In this document: piece after piece, positions 4,755-30,139 of the stretch
Layout of the letters: each line of letters begins with the position of its first letter
Position numbering within the stretch: the stretch's first letter is position 1
Source: a virus
Reading direction: 5' to 3' (one strand)
Length of the DNA: 30,139 nt
Virus record (IMG/VR): IMGVR_UViG_3300030117_001134
Span: 1-30,139 of that record
Notes under the pieces: model-generated
Told to the model about the DNA's origin: nothing
Seen by the model: the letters and a program-made list of their open reading frames with translations, nothing else
The model's database searches: none
Made by a program: the position numbers and the translations under genes

Positions 4755-6701
4755 GTGGCAGAGGCAGTCGTTAGATTAAGAGTTGATGCCAGCGGTGCGA
4801 CTAGGGCGTTAAATGGTGTACAGAATCAAACTAATAAATTACAAAGCTCATTTAATGGCTTGAGGACTGCGATTCTTGCATCAGGCGTTGTTTTAGTTGG
4901 AAGGCAAGCGGTTAAGACATCAGCAAATTTTGAAAAGCTTAACGTAAGATTAGGATTGCTTACAAAAAGCAGTTCAGATTTTGCAAAGTCGCAACAGATT
5001 GCGGCAGATGCACAGAAAGCCTTTGGATTAAGTGCAACTGAAGCTCTTGAGGGCGTTACAGATATAACAGCAAGACTGGCTCCACTTGGAACATCAGTTG
5101 AAGATATAAGAACTGTGTTCTTTGGATTTAATACGGCAGCAAAACTGGCTGGTGCATCAGCGATAGAATCATCAAACGCATTTAGACAACTAGCACAGGC
5201 TCTTGGCTCAGGAAGGCTGGCTGGTGATGAATTTAGGAGTGTTTCAGAACAAGTGCCAACAGTTCTTGCTCCTATAGCTGAAGAACTTGGCGTTACTATT
5301 GGTGAGCTTAAAAAATTAGCTGCTGATGGCAAATTGACCAGTGATGTTGTTCTTAGAGCTTTGGGAAGAATAGGAAATGAAGGCAGTGGATTTTTAAAAG
5401 AATTATTAAAAAACGATCCGACACAAGTATTTAAAAACTTTTCAAATGCAACAGAAGATTTGTCGAGAGCCTTTGGTGATGAGCTTAGACCCGCTGTTGA
5501 AGCTGTTACAAAGCTTCTTACTGATTTTATTGTCAAAGTAACTGAGTTTGTTAAATCTGATGCTGGACAGGCAGCAATTATGATTACAAAGATTGCTGTT
5601 GCTGCAAAACTTTTGGCAGTGGGTATTCCAATAGTCACAAGTGCATTGACGGCATTGTTAGTCAAAATTAATATGGTCGGTGTTCAGAGTCTTATTGCCT
5701 CTGGTGGTTTTACAGGTATGCAAGCGGCCTCACTATTAGCCGCTGGTGGTATAGGAAAAGTAACTCTTGCACTTGGAGCATTAAAAATTGCAATCGCAAC
5801 AACTGGTATAGGTTTGCTTGTTGTTGGTCTTGGAACTTTGGCTACAAAATTAATTAAAGCAACTAAAGAACAAAAAAATTACAATAAAGCACTTAAAGAA
5901 GGAAGTGAACAAGCGTTAAAAAGTGCATTTAATGATTTATTTATTGAAAGACAAAAACTATTAAAAAGATTAAGAATTGCACAAGAAAATAATAATAAGA
6001 GAGCTATAAATTCACTTAAGAGACAGATTGAAATTAATAAAGAGGCAATGGCTCCTATAAAAGCAAAATTAGATCAAGAAAGAGAAATTACAGCAGAGAT
6101 AGAGAGGCAAAATAAAAAGAAGGAAGAACAAGAAGAACTTATCAAAAAAAATGAAGAGGCAGCAAAAAAATTAAAGGATAAAATGACAGCTATAGGTGAA
6201 GAGATTGAAGGCAGTATAAAAAATAATCTAAGGGAGGCTATAACAGGCGCACAGTCATTTGGAGAAGCTATGACAAATGTATTGAACAAAATTAGGGACA
6301 AGATTATTGACGCACAGATTGACAAGCTTATTGGTAACTTTGGAGAAAACTTTGGCAAATCTGCCTCTGTTGGAGGAGGCAAAGGACTTGGAGGATTCTT
6401 AGGTGGTGTTTTAGGAGGTTTATTTGCTAATGGTGGTAGGCCACCAGTAGGCAAAGCATCTATTGTAGGTGAACGTGGGCCAGAATTATTTGTTCCAAAA
6501 GTTGCTGGTACGATTATTCCAAACAATAAACTTGATGGAGGTGACAATACTACAAATATTGTTAATGTATCAGTAGATGCCTCTGGTTCCTCAGTATCTG
6601 GTAATGGTGCAGACGCACAGCAACTAGGTGCTGTTATCGGGGCTGCTGTACAGGCACAACTAATTAAAGAAAAACGAAGTGGAGGTTTATTAGCAAGATA
6701 A
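4755..6701 (+). CDS. H: Tail tape measure protein
   Basis: A 648-residue protein with a GTG start, about 11 bases after an AAAGG ribosome site. The N-terminal part (VRLRVDASGATRALNGV, then residues about 55-215 with KTSANFEKLNVRLGLLT and SGRLAGDEFRSVSEQVP) matches the TMP_3 tape measure domain. Residues about 270-365 hold hydrophobic, probably membrane-active helices. Residues about 375-480 are a charged coiled coil rich in Lys and Glu. Near residue 572 there is the usual C-terminal tape measure motif GERGPELFVP. At about 0.15 nm per residue the tail would be near 97 nm. The stop overlaps the gpM start. Confidence 0.93.
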   Translation: MAEAVVRLRVDASGATRALNGVQNQTNKLQSSFNGLRTAILASGVVLVGRQAVKTSANFEKLNVRLGLLTKSSSDFAKSQQIAADAQKAFGLSATEALEGVTDITARLAPLGTSVEDIRTVFFGFNTAAKLAGASAIESSNAFRQLAQALGSGRLAGDEFRSVSEQVPTVLAPIAEELGVTIGELKKLAADGKLTSDVVLRALGRIGNEGSGFLKELLKNDPTQVFKNFSNATEDLSRAFGDELRPAVEAVTKLLTDFIVKVTEFVKSDAGQAAIMITKIAVAAKLLAVGIPIVTSALTALLVKINMVGVQSLIASGGFTGMQAASLLAAGGIGKVTLALGALKIAIATTGIGLLVVGLGTLATKLIKATKEQKNYNKALKEGSEQALKSAFNDLFIERQKLLKRLRIAQENNNKRAINSLKRQIEINKEAMAPIKAKLDQEREITAEIERQNKKKEEQEELIKKNEEAAKKLKDKMTAIGEEIEGSIKNNLREAITGAQSFGEAMTNVLNKIRDKIIDAQIDKLIGNFGENFGKSASVGGGKGLGGFLGGVLGGLFANGGRPPVGKASIVGERGPELFVPKVAGTIIPNNKLDGGDNTTNIVNVSVDASGSSVSGNGADAQQLGAVIGAAVQAQLIKEKRSGGLLAR

Positions 6702-12910: not shown

Positions 12911-13876
12911 ATGGCTTTAGCAATTAACGGAACAACTGGTATCTCTGGCGTTGACGGATCATCTTCCGCACCAGCGATTGTTGGTTCTGACTCAAATACA
13001 GGTTTTTCATTTGCATCTGATACTGTAAACATAAACACTGGCGGTACATCTAGAGTTAATATTGACAGTTCTGGGCATTTAAATATGCCAACTGATTCTG
13101 GACAAATACGTTTGGGAGCTTCACAAGATTTATTGATATTCCATGATTCTAACAATTCTGTAATTCGGGAATCTGGGACAGGCTCTTTGTTTCTTGAAAG
13201 TGACACTAATATTTTTTTAGGAAAAACAAACGGTGGAGAAGTATTTATAAAATGTGAGGCTGATGGTGCGGTGGAAATCTACCATAATAATGTTCGTATA
13301 ATAACCACAGGAGACGGAGGCAATGTTGATACTAATAAAGGTCAAATTGATATACAAGGTAAAATTCATACTCAATTAGGCAACAACGGTACTAATAGTT
13401 TTAATAGAGAAACATCAGGCAATCAAATTGTATTTAATACAACAGGAACAACAAGAGGCAGTATTTCATCTAATGGATCAACTGTTTCTTTCAATACGAC
13501 ATCTGACTATAGATTAAAAGAAAATGAAGTTGCTATATCAGACGGTATTACAAGGTTAAAAAAATTAAAACCATATAGATTTAATTTTAAATCAGACACA
13601 AATACAATAGTTGACGGTTTTTTTGCTCATGAGGTAACAACTGCTGTACCTGAAGCAGTAAATGGTGTTAAAGATGCAACTGAAACTACATATTATGATG
13701 AAAATGATACTATTCCAGATGGTAAAGTTGTTGGTGATGTTAAAGAATCTGCTTCGATTGTTCCTCAAGGTTTAGATCAAAGTAAATTAGTTCCTTTGCT
13801 TACCGCTGCATTAAAAGAGGCCGTTGGTAAAATAGAAACATTAGAAACAAAAGTTGCTGCATTGGAGGCTGCATAA
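12911..13876 (+). CDS. Tail fibre with C-terminal S74 intramolecular chaperone
   Basis: A 321-residue protein. Residues about 65-135 are a beta module (IRLGASQDLLIFHDSNN through DGAVEIYHNNVRI) also present three times in the fibre at 18001. The C-terminal 124 residues are a Peptidase_S74 chaperone: the catalytic SDYRLKEN motif begins at Ser198 and is followed by ITRLKKLKPYRFNF, DGFFAHEV and a closing coiled coil. S74 domains trimerise the fibre and then cut themselves off just before the serine, so the mature fibre should be about 197 residues. The protein is short for an S74 fibre and may act as a side spike. Confidence 0.85.
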   Translation: MALAINGTTGISGVDGSSSAPAIVGSDSNTGFSFASDTVNINTGGTSRVNIDSSGHLNMPTDSGQIRLGASQDLLIFHDSNNSVIRESGTGSLFLESDTNIFLGKTNGGEVFIKCEADGAVEIYHNNVRIITTGDGGNVDTNKGQIDIQGKIHTQLGNNGTNSFNRETSGNQIVFNTTGTTRGSISSNGSTVSFNTTSDYRLKENEVAISDGITRLKKLKPYRFNFKSDTNTIVDGFFAHEVTTAVPEAVNGVKDATETTYYDENDTIPDGKVVGDVKESASIVPQGLDQSKLVPLLTAALKEAVGKIETLETKVAALEAA

Positions 13877-14434
13877 ATGGCAAAAATTCAGCTAAATGCT
13901 GCGTCAGGGGGAGGCTCAGTTGCTTTAGAAGGGCCAGCATCTTTAGGTTCTGATAAAGTTATAAAATTTCCAAATAGTCCTAATCTTATAATTCAAGTTC
14001 TGCAAACTGTAAAAACAGATACTTTTAGTACAACTTCGTCTGGTTTTTCTGATATTACAGGTTTATCTGTAGCTATAACACCAACTTCAAGTAATAGCAA
14101 AATTCTTCTTCATTATGATGCTAATGTTGGTGGCAATGAAATAGTTTTTGTGAGACTTATGAGAGGCAGCACAGCTATTGGTATCGGTGATGCAGGTAAT
14201 AATAGACAAAGAGTTACACAAGGTGGTGTATTTAGAAATAATAATGATGATAAATTAAGTATTTTTAGTGGTTCTTTTTTAGACAGCCCTAGTTCAACTT
14301 CAACCCAAACTTACAAATTACAAGTTTTTTTATATTCAGGAACTGTAACAGTTAATATGCCTAAAAATGATACTGACGCAAGTTACACAGGTAGAGGTAT
14401 TTCCACAATAACAGCTATGGAGGTGTCAGTATGA
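13877..14434 (+). CDS. Structural protein of the fibre cassette, unknown function
   Basis: A 185-residue, beta-rich protein (MAKIQLNAASGGGSVALEG, later FSDITGLSVAITPTSSNSKI and a closing TITAMEVSV). This overall pattern, a short N-terminal tag, a D-I-TGLS strand and an ITAME ending, is common in cyanophage and marine phage virion proteins whose role is not known. It starts directly after the S74 fibre stop and overlaps the next gene by ATGA. I infer a head or tail fibre accessory protein. Confidence 0.55.
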   Translation: MAKIQLNAASGGGSVALEGPASLGSDKVIKFPNSPNLIIQVLQTVKTDTFSTTSSGFSDITGLSVAITPTSSNSKILLHYDANVGGNEIVFVRLMRGSTAIGIGDAGNNRQRVTQGGVFRNNNDDKLSIFSGSFLDSPSSTSTQTYKLQVFLYSGTVTVNMPKNDTDASYTGRGISTITAMEVSV

Positions 14435-16099: not shown

Positions 16100-16443
16100 T
16101 GGCTATAGTTGCTGGAACTTATGATTTTACTGTTCAGAGAAGATCAGATCACACTGAACTTTTTAGAATTACTGATTCAAATGATAGTGCTGTAAATCTA
16201 ACTGGTTTTACAGTAGCTGCTCAAGTTTGGGATAAAGAGAGGACAGGAAAATATGCAGATTTTACGGTGGCTTATACAAATAGAACCAATGGTGAATTTA
16301 GTATCAGTTTGACACATGTTGAAACTTTGCAATTTACACCTAATGAGTTATCTTATGACGTTTTACTTTTAAATCCCAGCGGCAAGCGTGAATACTATAT
16401 TGAAGGTACTATATTTGTAAGTGAAGGCTATACCACATTATGA
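16099..16443 (+). CDS. BppU-like beta-sandwich structural protein
   Basis: A 114-residue protein built of alternating strands: YDFTVQRRSDHTELFRITD, NLTGFTVAAQVWDKE, FTVAYTNRTNGEFSISL and LSYDVLLLNPSGKREYYIEG. The order input range, LTG-V--Q-, then Y-V-L-PSG-- YIEG resembles the N-terminal sandwich of phage baseplate upper proteins (BppU-type) and many small cyanophage virion proteins. It is coupled at both ends (TAATG and ATGA). It probably attaches fibres to the tail tip. Confidence 0.6.
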   Translation: MAIVAGTYDFTVQRRSDHTELFRITDSNDSAVNLTGFTVAAQVWDKERTGKYADFTVAYTNRTNGEFSISLTHVETLQFTPNELSYDVLLLNPSGKREYYIEGTIFVSEGYTTL

Positions 16444-16676
16444 GCAACATTAATGTCACTCAAAATAAAAACACCGTTACTGTTAACGGTGAAACAAGAG
16501 TAGTTACTGTTAAAGCACAAGGCCCACAAGGGCCAACCTTTTCATCTTCTGGTGCTACTTTAAATGATTCAAGTAAAGTAGATGGGTCAGTGGTGTTTTT
16601 CGATTCATCTAGTGGTACATTTAAAGCAGACAGTACAACTACAAAACTCACACTTGTCAATGGAGGTAATTTTTAG
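16440..16676 (+). CDS. Small structural protein with a GPQGP motif
   Basis: A 78-residue protein. The first 30 residues are strand-forming (NVTQNKNTVTVNGETRVVTV), followed by one collagen-like GPQGP turn and a Ser/Thr-rich second half ending KLTLVNGGNF. The last part (DGSVVFFDSSSGTFKA) resembles the ends of small cyanophage collar or fibre proteins. It overlaps the gene before by ATGA and is followed three bases later by a fibre gene, so it is likely a virion accessory protein. Confidence 0.55.
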   Translation: MSNINVTQNKNTVTVNGETRVVTVKAQGPQGPTFSSSGATLNDSSKVDGSVVFFDSSSGTFKADSTTTKLTLVNGGNF

Positions 16677-29543: not shown

Positions 29544-29729
29544 GTGTACTTGAAAAACTACATGAACATTTTTCTCAACATCAAAGCTGAAGATGCCCAC
29601 AGGCTCAGACAGTTTTTGAAAAAGAACCCATCAACACCATCTGGATCTGGTATTGCAAGAGAACATCTTGACGCTGGCATTATTTCCAGAGTTGTTTACC
29701 AACTGGAACATGCATTGAACGAATTGTGA
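29544..29729 (+). CDS. Hypothetical small protein (start uncertain)
   Basis: A 61-residue ORF from a GTG at 29544, with a weak AAGAGA site ten bases upstream; the ATG at 29562 would give 55 residues. The sequence includes NIFLNIKAEDAHRLRQFLKK, SGSGIAREHLDAGIISRVVY and ends EHALNEL, helical in character. Its stop codon is inside the closing helix of the structured RNA candidate. Function is unknown. Confidence 0.5.
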   Translation: MYLKNYMNIFLNIKAEDAHRLRQFLKKNPSTPSGSGIAREHLDAGIISRVVYQLEHALNEL

Positions 29730-29849
29730 GTCGGGTAGCCTGATGACTTATGCAAAGCAAGTCTGAAAGCCATACAACACCTATTTTGTGATATTTAAGG
29801 GAAGGCAGGGCGGTTATGCGAAGAGCCGATCCATCACCCGACTACTCAC
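29726..29849 (+). ncRNA. Candidate structured RNA with two GNRA-capped hairpins
   Basis: GTGAG (29726-29730) pairs with CTCAC (29845-29849) and TCGGGT (29731-29736) with ACCCGA (29836-29841), an 11-bp closing helix with a 3-base bulge. Inside, GACTT (29745-29749) pairs with AAGTC (29759-29763), and CGGTT (29811-29815) pairs with AGCCG (29824-29828). The tips are nearly the same: AUGCAAAG and AUGCGAAG. Each can be read as an A.G pair, a U-A pair and a GNRA tetraloop (GCAA and GCGA). The other strand would not give GNRA loops, so I place it on the plus strand. GCC elements at 29738 and 29769 can both pair with GGC at 29804, allowing two folds. I match it to no known family. Confidence 0.5.
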
Positions 29850-30039
29850 ACAAAATATATTTAGCTTTTATATCTTCAACGATCATTTCTGGATATTGAA
29901 TTGTATGCCAAATGTGGCTGCACTTATAACATTCTCTACGTCTGACAATAACGTGTTTTGAGTTGCGGTCTGATCTTCTTACTTTTTGATCTGTGTATTC
30001 TTGGCACTTAGGACAGGCCACCCATGAAATCCGTTTCAT
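29842..30039 (-). CDS. Zinc-ribbon protein, NrdR N-terminal-like
   Basis: A 65-residue protein. CPKC at residues 9-12 and CYKC at 37-40 form a four-cysteine zinc ribbon. The spacer ends in VRRRECYKC, very close to the RRREC..C of the NrdR zinc ribbon, the repressor of ribonucleotide reductase genes, but the ATP-cone that senses nucleotides is missing. It probably binds DNA as a small regulator. The stop lies inside the structured RNA's closing helix. The ATG overlaps the 3' end of the upstream resolvase gene. Confidence 0.65.
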   Translation of the reverse strand: MKRISWVACPKCQEYTDQKVRRSDRNSKHVIVRRRECYKCSHIWHTIQYPEMIVEDIKAKYILCE

Positions 30040-30139
30040 TTATAGTTCTTATTTTTATGGTCGCACCAGTTTCAGATTCTGTTTCGCAATACTTTTTGAC
30101 AGCGTGTAAACTTACAACTTGGCTATCGTCAGCAAATGC
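30008..30139 (-). CDS. RusA-type Holliday junction resolvase (3' end only)
   Basis: The open frame enters from the right edge and ends at a TAA (30010-30008), giving the last 43 residues. They begin AFADDSQVVSLHAVKKYCET, and the DDSQV..L...K pattern is the C-terminal signature of RusA endonucleases, where the aspartates take part in metal binding and cleavage. This enzyme would resolve branched DNA made by the recombination set or before packaging. It overlaps the zinc-ribbon start by 32 bases. The N-terminus lies outside the window. Confidence 0.7.
   Translation of the reverse strand, partial: AFADDSQVVSLHAVKKYCETESETGATIKIRTINETDFMGGLS

Follow-up and report, generated by a model that had tools for sequence, protein, structure and literature searches.

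A new family of four-way-junction RNAs in Prochlorococcus siphoviruses and ocean virus contigs

Introduction

Near the end of the 30,139-nucleotide stretch of viral DNA analysed here (the window, from IMG/VR record IMGVR_UViG_3300030117_001134) lies a short segment that an initial annotation, made from the letters of the DNA, took for an uncharacterised structured RNA. What is this element, and what kind of RNA would it be? The genome is cyanophage-like, as that annotation had supposed, with a tail protein J closest to those of the Prochlorococcus siphoviruses MED4-117 and MED4-184/P-HS2 (46-47% identity). Structured RNAs such as manA, wcaG and PhotoRC-II have been described in marine and cyanophage sequences (PMC2864571). 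We found no description of this RNA in the open literature on marine and cyanophage RNAs (PMC2864571) or on hammerhead variants (PMC3088659), a search from which subscription papers and preprints were excluded. Our analysis makes it virtually certain that window positions 29729-29843 (+ strand) are a member of a new structured-RNA family. The family is new; the kind to which it belongs, the compact phage RNA, is already known.

Results

Relatives were collected through a search with the zinc-ribbon protein encoded beside the RNA, which gave 60 IMG/VR loci, and then with DNA patterns from the core, which gave many more. The collection comprises about 100 homologues from IMG/VR contigs and two isolates, with 85 distinct RNA sequences drawn from 121 distinct sequence contexts, some of which duplicate one contig. 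The RNA is present in cultured Prochlorococcus siphoviruses: homologues lie at 16348-16465 on the - strand of MED4-117 (NC_020857) and at 13798-13915 on the + strand of P-HS2/MED4-184. The annotation of these phage records places a RusA gene and a 'hypothetical protein' over it. Members range from about 92 to 133 nt (about 115 nt in the window), score 76-119 bits against the covariance model at the searched loci, and occur once per contig in all 18 positive contigs scanned with that model. Matches in ten loci (L147, L148, L156, L171, L175, L180, L186, L199, L201 and L247) were rejected as coding coincidences, as was L141, from a Burkholderiaceae MAG, the only match in genome_contigs. Zinc-ribbon contigs of the L020/L033/L036/L045/L058 type carry no RNA within the sequence covered. 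Cyanophages KBS-S-2A, S-H1 and S-2L (the last from base 5000 on) gave no match to the covariance model, and the RNA is therefore not essential to cyanosiphoviruses in general.

Among the tests that the initial annotation had named in advance were a search for a strong match to a known family and a search for homologues with compensatory stem changes. Both came out in its favour. Against Rfam 15 the window returned no family at E<=10 other than a 14-bit chance snoRNA match on the opposite strand, and eight diverse members returned no match at E<=3; homologues with compensatory changes exist, as described below. ARAGORN found neither a tRNA nor a tmRNA.

The fold shared by the family is a four-way junction of helices P1 to P4, all given here on the + strand. 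P1 closes the domain with 8 bp, pairing a 5' arm AGUCGGGU (29729-29736) with a 3' arm ACCCGACU (29836-29843). The closing helix had been described as 11 bp with a bulge; these 8 bp are kept throughout the family, whereas the three outer pairs beyond a 3-nt bulge (29726-28 with 29847-49) are found only in the window's clade. As annotated, both flanking ORFs end inside the helix: the stop codon of a small upstream ORF (phrog_34258, 29544-29729, + strand, likely start 29565, 55 aa) ends on the first base of P1, and the 3' arm overlaps the end of the zinc-ribbon gene (29842-30039, - strand). Junction strand J12, AGCCUGAU (29737-29744), in which AGCC is nearly invariant, leads into the P2 hairpin GACUU-AUGCAAAGC-AAGUC (29745-29763, arms 29745-49 and 29759-63; consensus GANN...NNUC), which is followed by J23, UGAAA (29764-29768), invariant in the alignments. 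In P3 (29769-29806) GCC 29769-71 pairs with GGC 29804-06 (consensus GYY...RRC) around an internal loop and a variable hairpin, P3', at about 29780-29800, absent from L158, L170 and L174. The invariant single A of J34 (29807) precedes the P4 hairpin GG(G)-CGGUU-AUGCGAAG-AGCCG-A-UCC (29808-29832), whose stem CGGUU/AGCCG spans 29811-15/29824-28 and whose A at 29829 is unpaired and conserved, and J41, AUC (29833-29835; AUA, ACC or AAC in relatives), completes the junction. Both hairpins of the initial annotation, together with their tips, are thus present where it had placed them.

Across 25 diverse sequences, standard pairs fill 98.5% of base-pair cells, and 13 of the 19 pairs show two-sided compensatory changes. 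An alignment of 61 members gives the same outcome (98.5% of cells, 13/19 pairs), although it was fitted to the model and the 25-sequence count is the cleaner one. When the partners are displaced by 1-3 columns, pairing falls to 24-50%, and none of 500 shuffles matches the real alignment in pairing, two-sided changes or covariation score. Every P1 cell is paired (100%), with two-sided changes in six of seven modelled pairs; the first two pairs of P2 (G-C, A-U) are invariant and the next two covary (CG/UA); P3 occurs as GCC/GGC, GCU/GGC, GCU/AGC, GUC/GAC and GUU/GAC; and P4 is paired in 98% of cells, with two-sided changes in its three upper pairs. This comparative evidence proves the structure. 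The folding check proposed alongside the initial annotation, by contrast, lent it no support: the single-sequence energy of the window is ordinary (z = -0.74, with 48 of 200 shuffles equally good) and the single-sequence fold mispairs P3, so that one sequence proves nothing and the case rests on the relatives. G-U pairs are frequent on the + strand, which places the function on that strand and, with the compensatory pairs, agrees with the earlier proposal of selection on RNA structure there.

The same covariation disposes of the suggestion that competing GCC/GGC pairings offer two folds and hence a switch. Near-identical relatives exchange C-G for U-A in P3 (GCU/GGC versus GUU or GUC/GAC), and GCC 29738-40 stays constant where GGC becomes GAC, which removes the alternative; only the pairing of 29769-71 with 29804-06 covaries.

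On the alignments, the signature of the family is the junction AGCCUGANGA-P2-UCUGAAA, rather than the twin GNRA tips to which attention was first drawn. Such tips are indeed found in the window and in some clades, but loops vary between clades while the junction is constant. Invariance extends to AGCCUGANGA (with AUCC in clade E and GGCC in two sequences as exceptions), to UCUGAAA, to the single A of J34 and, in P4, to the basal G's and the unpaired A, while loop and helix sequences vary. A conserved junction with variable loops and helices is typical of RNAs that are catalytic or that bind a protein or a ligand, and here it suggests a partner that reads the junction. UGANGA and UCUGA are invariant apart from N (position 29744), which is U in 71 of 85 sequences and C, G or A in the other 14. 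We take UGANGA...UCUGA to be the sequence of a box C/D-type kink-turn, in which 3b.3n is variable, and UGAUGA (29741-29746) together with J23 would match such a motif. At the level of letters, the tandem sheared G.A/A.G, the variable 3b.3n and an NC stem opening with G-C and A-U pairs can all be found. The RNA differs from a box C/D-type kink-turn in having no contiguous C-stem: AGCC and AAG, at the C-stem position, are not complementary, and the motif opens into the four-way junction, which could take the place of that stem.

A sigma70-like -10 box (at least 5 of 6 letters, with A2 and T6) lies 5-8 nt upstream of P1 in seven of 11 contexts from clades C-F; Markov resamples predict 0.8, and none of 2000 reached seven, a count to be used as a guide since these contexts are partly related. 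L151 and L162 carry the same RNA behind unrelated upstream DNA, and each has the box. This placement suggests that the RNA begins at a transcription start, and the conservation of -10 boxes at its 5' end in four clades is an argument for its transcription. The box occurs in none of 11 contexts from clades A, B and G, and clade H likewise lacks a promoter there. At the 3' end no terminator recurs consistently, U-rich tracts following P1 only in clade C and some members of D, and a free 3' end would thus need processing.

The position between convergent genes that the initial annotation reported holds for the window and is just one among several contexts. A small ORF, of one family throughout, precedes the RNA in clades A (that of the window), B (MED4-117 type) and H (L235 type), and its stop abuts P1. 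In clades D, E and F it lies behind DNA with a -10 box, in several cases after an intrinsic terminator. Clade C has the RNA ahead of a 57-aa ORF, and in clade G it lies between lysis-like ORFs and a portal gene whose product is nearest to that of cyanophage S-2L (40%). The rusA gene adjoins the RNA in clades A, B, D, E, F and H; in the window it is represented by a C-terminal resolvase fragment (30010-30139, low end approximate, - strand) that is cut by the contig end and is 91% identical over 43 aa to the RusA of L211. The order in clades A, B, D, E and F is RNA, inverted rusA (after the zinc ribbon in A), O-like initiator, TerL and portal, the last three on the RNA strand and rusA opposite. 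TerL lies 4-5 kb downstream of the RNA in many clades, and in clade G the RNA is placed between TerL and portal.

Several features of these neighbourhoods deserve separate mention. The gap between the RNA and rusA (29842-30039 in the window; also L235 and L240) is filled by clade-specific convergent genes, either an NrdR-like zinc ribbon or another protein of about 98 aa, or by nothing. The zinc ribbon of the window scores 28.1 bits against Pfam PF22811 (cut-off 27.2), an N-terminal NrdR domain, with the rest of NrdR absent, and could serve the phage as a transcription regulator. A cargo hot spot lies between the RNA and the zinc-ribbon gene, immediately 3' of the former (L008, L015, L017, L025, L042, L061), where a cassette comprises a conserved AT-rich promoter block, TTGACA...TATATT then ...TTTATAGATACAACTTC, a contig-specific small ORF and an intrinsic terminator. 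In clade B, intrinsic terminators on the RNA strand and antisense to rusA lie 148-164 nt (L214) and 157-175 nt (L222) from the RNA start, a distance resembling that of lambda tR'. The start codons of the divergent rusA and O-like initiator genes are within about 5 nt of each other or overlap across clades (L142, L143, L212-L214, L216-L219), so that each promoter must be inside the other gene or further out. In L215, of clade C, two 2OG-Fe(II) oxygenase-like proteins (recognised by eye) are encoded 1.8 and 5.7 kb upstream of the RNA among small structural-looking proteins.

Discussion

Identification with a hammerhead, a riboswitch, a tRNA or the known marine RNAs is either rejected or unlikely on these data. 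The manA, wcaG and PhotoRC-II RNAs share the setting of marine cyanophage sequences with our family; they are different families, and none was matched in the Rfam scans. The resemblance to the hammerhead is more specific, since the letters CUGANGA...GAAA recur on strands that meet at a junction, N is variable as in hammerheads, AUC or AUA precedes P1, and saltern hammerheads provide a precedent for an insertion before C3, of two nucleotides (G2a, C2b; PMC3088659). A divergent self-cleaving ribozyme of this kind, with P3 and P4 in place of stem III and cleavage after AUC beside P1, nevertheless seems very improbable to us. In all members UCU separates the covarying stem from GAAA, whereas stem II of a hammerhead is flanked directly and leaves no room for it; the UC instead pairs with GA to extend P2; AGC stands before C3; there is no simple stem III with A15.1-U16.1 and an NUH site, P3 and P4 being there instead; J41 is ACC or AAC in L144, L153 and L244; and no Rfam ribozyme model was matched in the window at E<=10 or in eight diverse members at E<=3. 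The initial annotation had likewise seen no fit to hammerhead, tRNA or tmRNA. A metabolite riboswitch, to which we give marginally more weight while still judging it improbable, would agree with the compact multi-helix junction, its invariant single-stranded core and the position ahead of an ORF in clade C. Against it, the RNA usually lies outside the 5' UTR of a sense gene, following a stop codon in clades A, B, G and H and followed by antisense rusA in B, D, E and F, with no adjacent expression platform and with varied neighbours. An RNA of the packaging motor or virion, comparable to the compact, phage-encoded phi29 pRNA, is suggested by the size of about 115 nt, the paired ends and the TerL gene downstream or, in clade G, adjacent. 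We regard it as no better a candidate than the ribozyme: these phages carry ordinary large terminases, the phi29 phage and motor are of other types, and kissing between the two hairpin tips was rejected because the P2 and P4 loops have, by eye, no consistent complementarity across clades. Least probable of all is an element that works as DNA, such as an origin, a pac or cos site or a recombination hairpin. The RNA does adjoin the initiator gene and RusA, but its common G-U pairs become C-A mismatches on the other strand, and promoters point in from one side only.

A more substantial alternative, which we consider possible although on balance unlikely, is a cis-acting leader at the head of the replication and packaging unit, providing put-like antitermination or 5'-end protection. 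Such a leader would enable transcription to continue through the stretch antisense to rusA, inserted terminators and the late genes. The RNA heads the initiator/TerL/portal unit in clades A, B, D, E and F; the near-overlap of the rusA and initiator starts leaves no room for a separate divergent promoter; the RNA is placed as at a transcription start in C-F; and there are obstacles to be crossed, in the form of moron cassettes immediately 3' of the RNA, each equipped with a promoter and a terminator, and the + strand terminator about 150-175 nt from its start in L214 and L222. With the put RNAs of HK022 it shares a phage origin and a position early in a transcription unit, and terminators follow it in several clades. 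The put RNAs, however, act only in cis and are two stem-loops of about 70 nt (PMC9378689), a fold unlike the four-way junction of 92-133 nt at variable locations described here; and placement downstream of a long-operon promoter is seen in clades D-F, is ambiguous in A and B and is lacking in C and G. In clade C the RNA heads merely a three-gene stretch, in G it lies inside the packaging operon, in A and B it is not at a start site, and promoters inside rusA are possible.

The best reading in our judgement, though one we hold tentatively and rate somewhat short of an even chance, is a stand-alone, protein-bound phage RNA acting in trans. Locations that change between clades, together with single copies, favour a trans-acting RNA. 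What speaks against it is that most clades have the RNA in one place, at the start of a long co-directional block of genes, as would suit a role in cis, and that no promoter adjoins it in clades A, B, G and H. We suggest that the RNA would be made from its own promoter, or as a stretch of an operon transcript that is later cut back to the domain closed by P1, and that the kink-turn-like element of P2, J12 and J23 would hold it in its active shape. During infection it might then act in trans, most likely in a complex with protein, and host transcription or RNA-processing machinery would be among the possible targets. The bolder form of this proposal, in which an autonomous four-way-junction RNA with a kink-turn-like core takes over host RNA polymerase, RNase or the ribosome in trans, is conceivable but rather doubtful.

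A well-supported RNA family with no catalogue entry is thus found in Prochlorococcus phages sequenced years ago and in about 100 ocean virus contigs, and the hosts rank first in abundance among photosynthetic bacteria of the ocean. Both P-HS2 and MED4-117 can be grown on MED4, so that tests of expression and of binding partners are immediately feasible. The conserved junction points to a specific partner, and, being encoded between early genes and packaging genes, the RNA is relevant to the way in which these small phages change from one gene programme to another. Should an autonomous RNA that takes over host machinery prove to be the right account, it would represent a new functional class of phage RNA, used by abundant marine cyanosiphoviruses.
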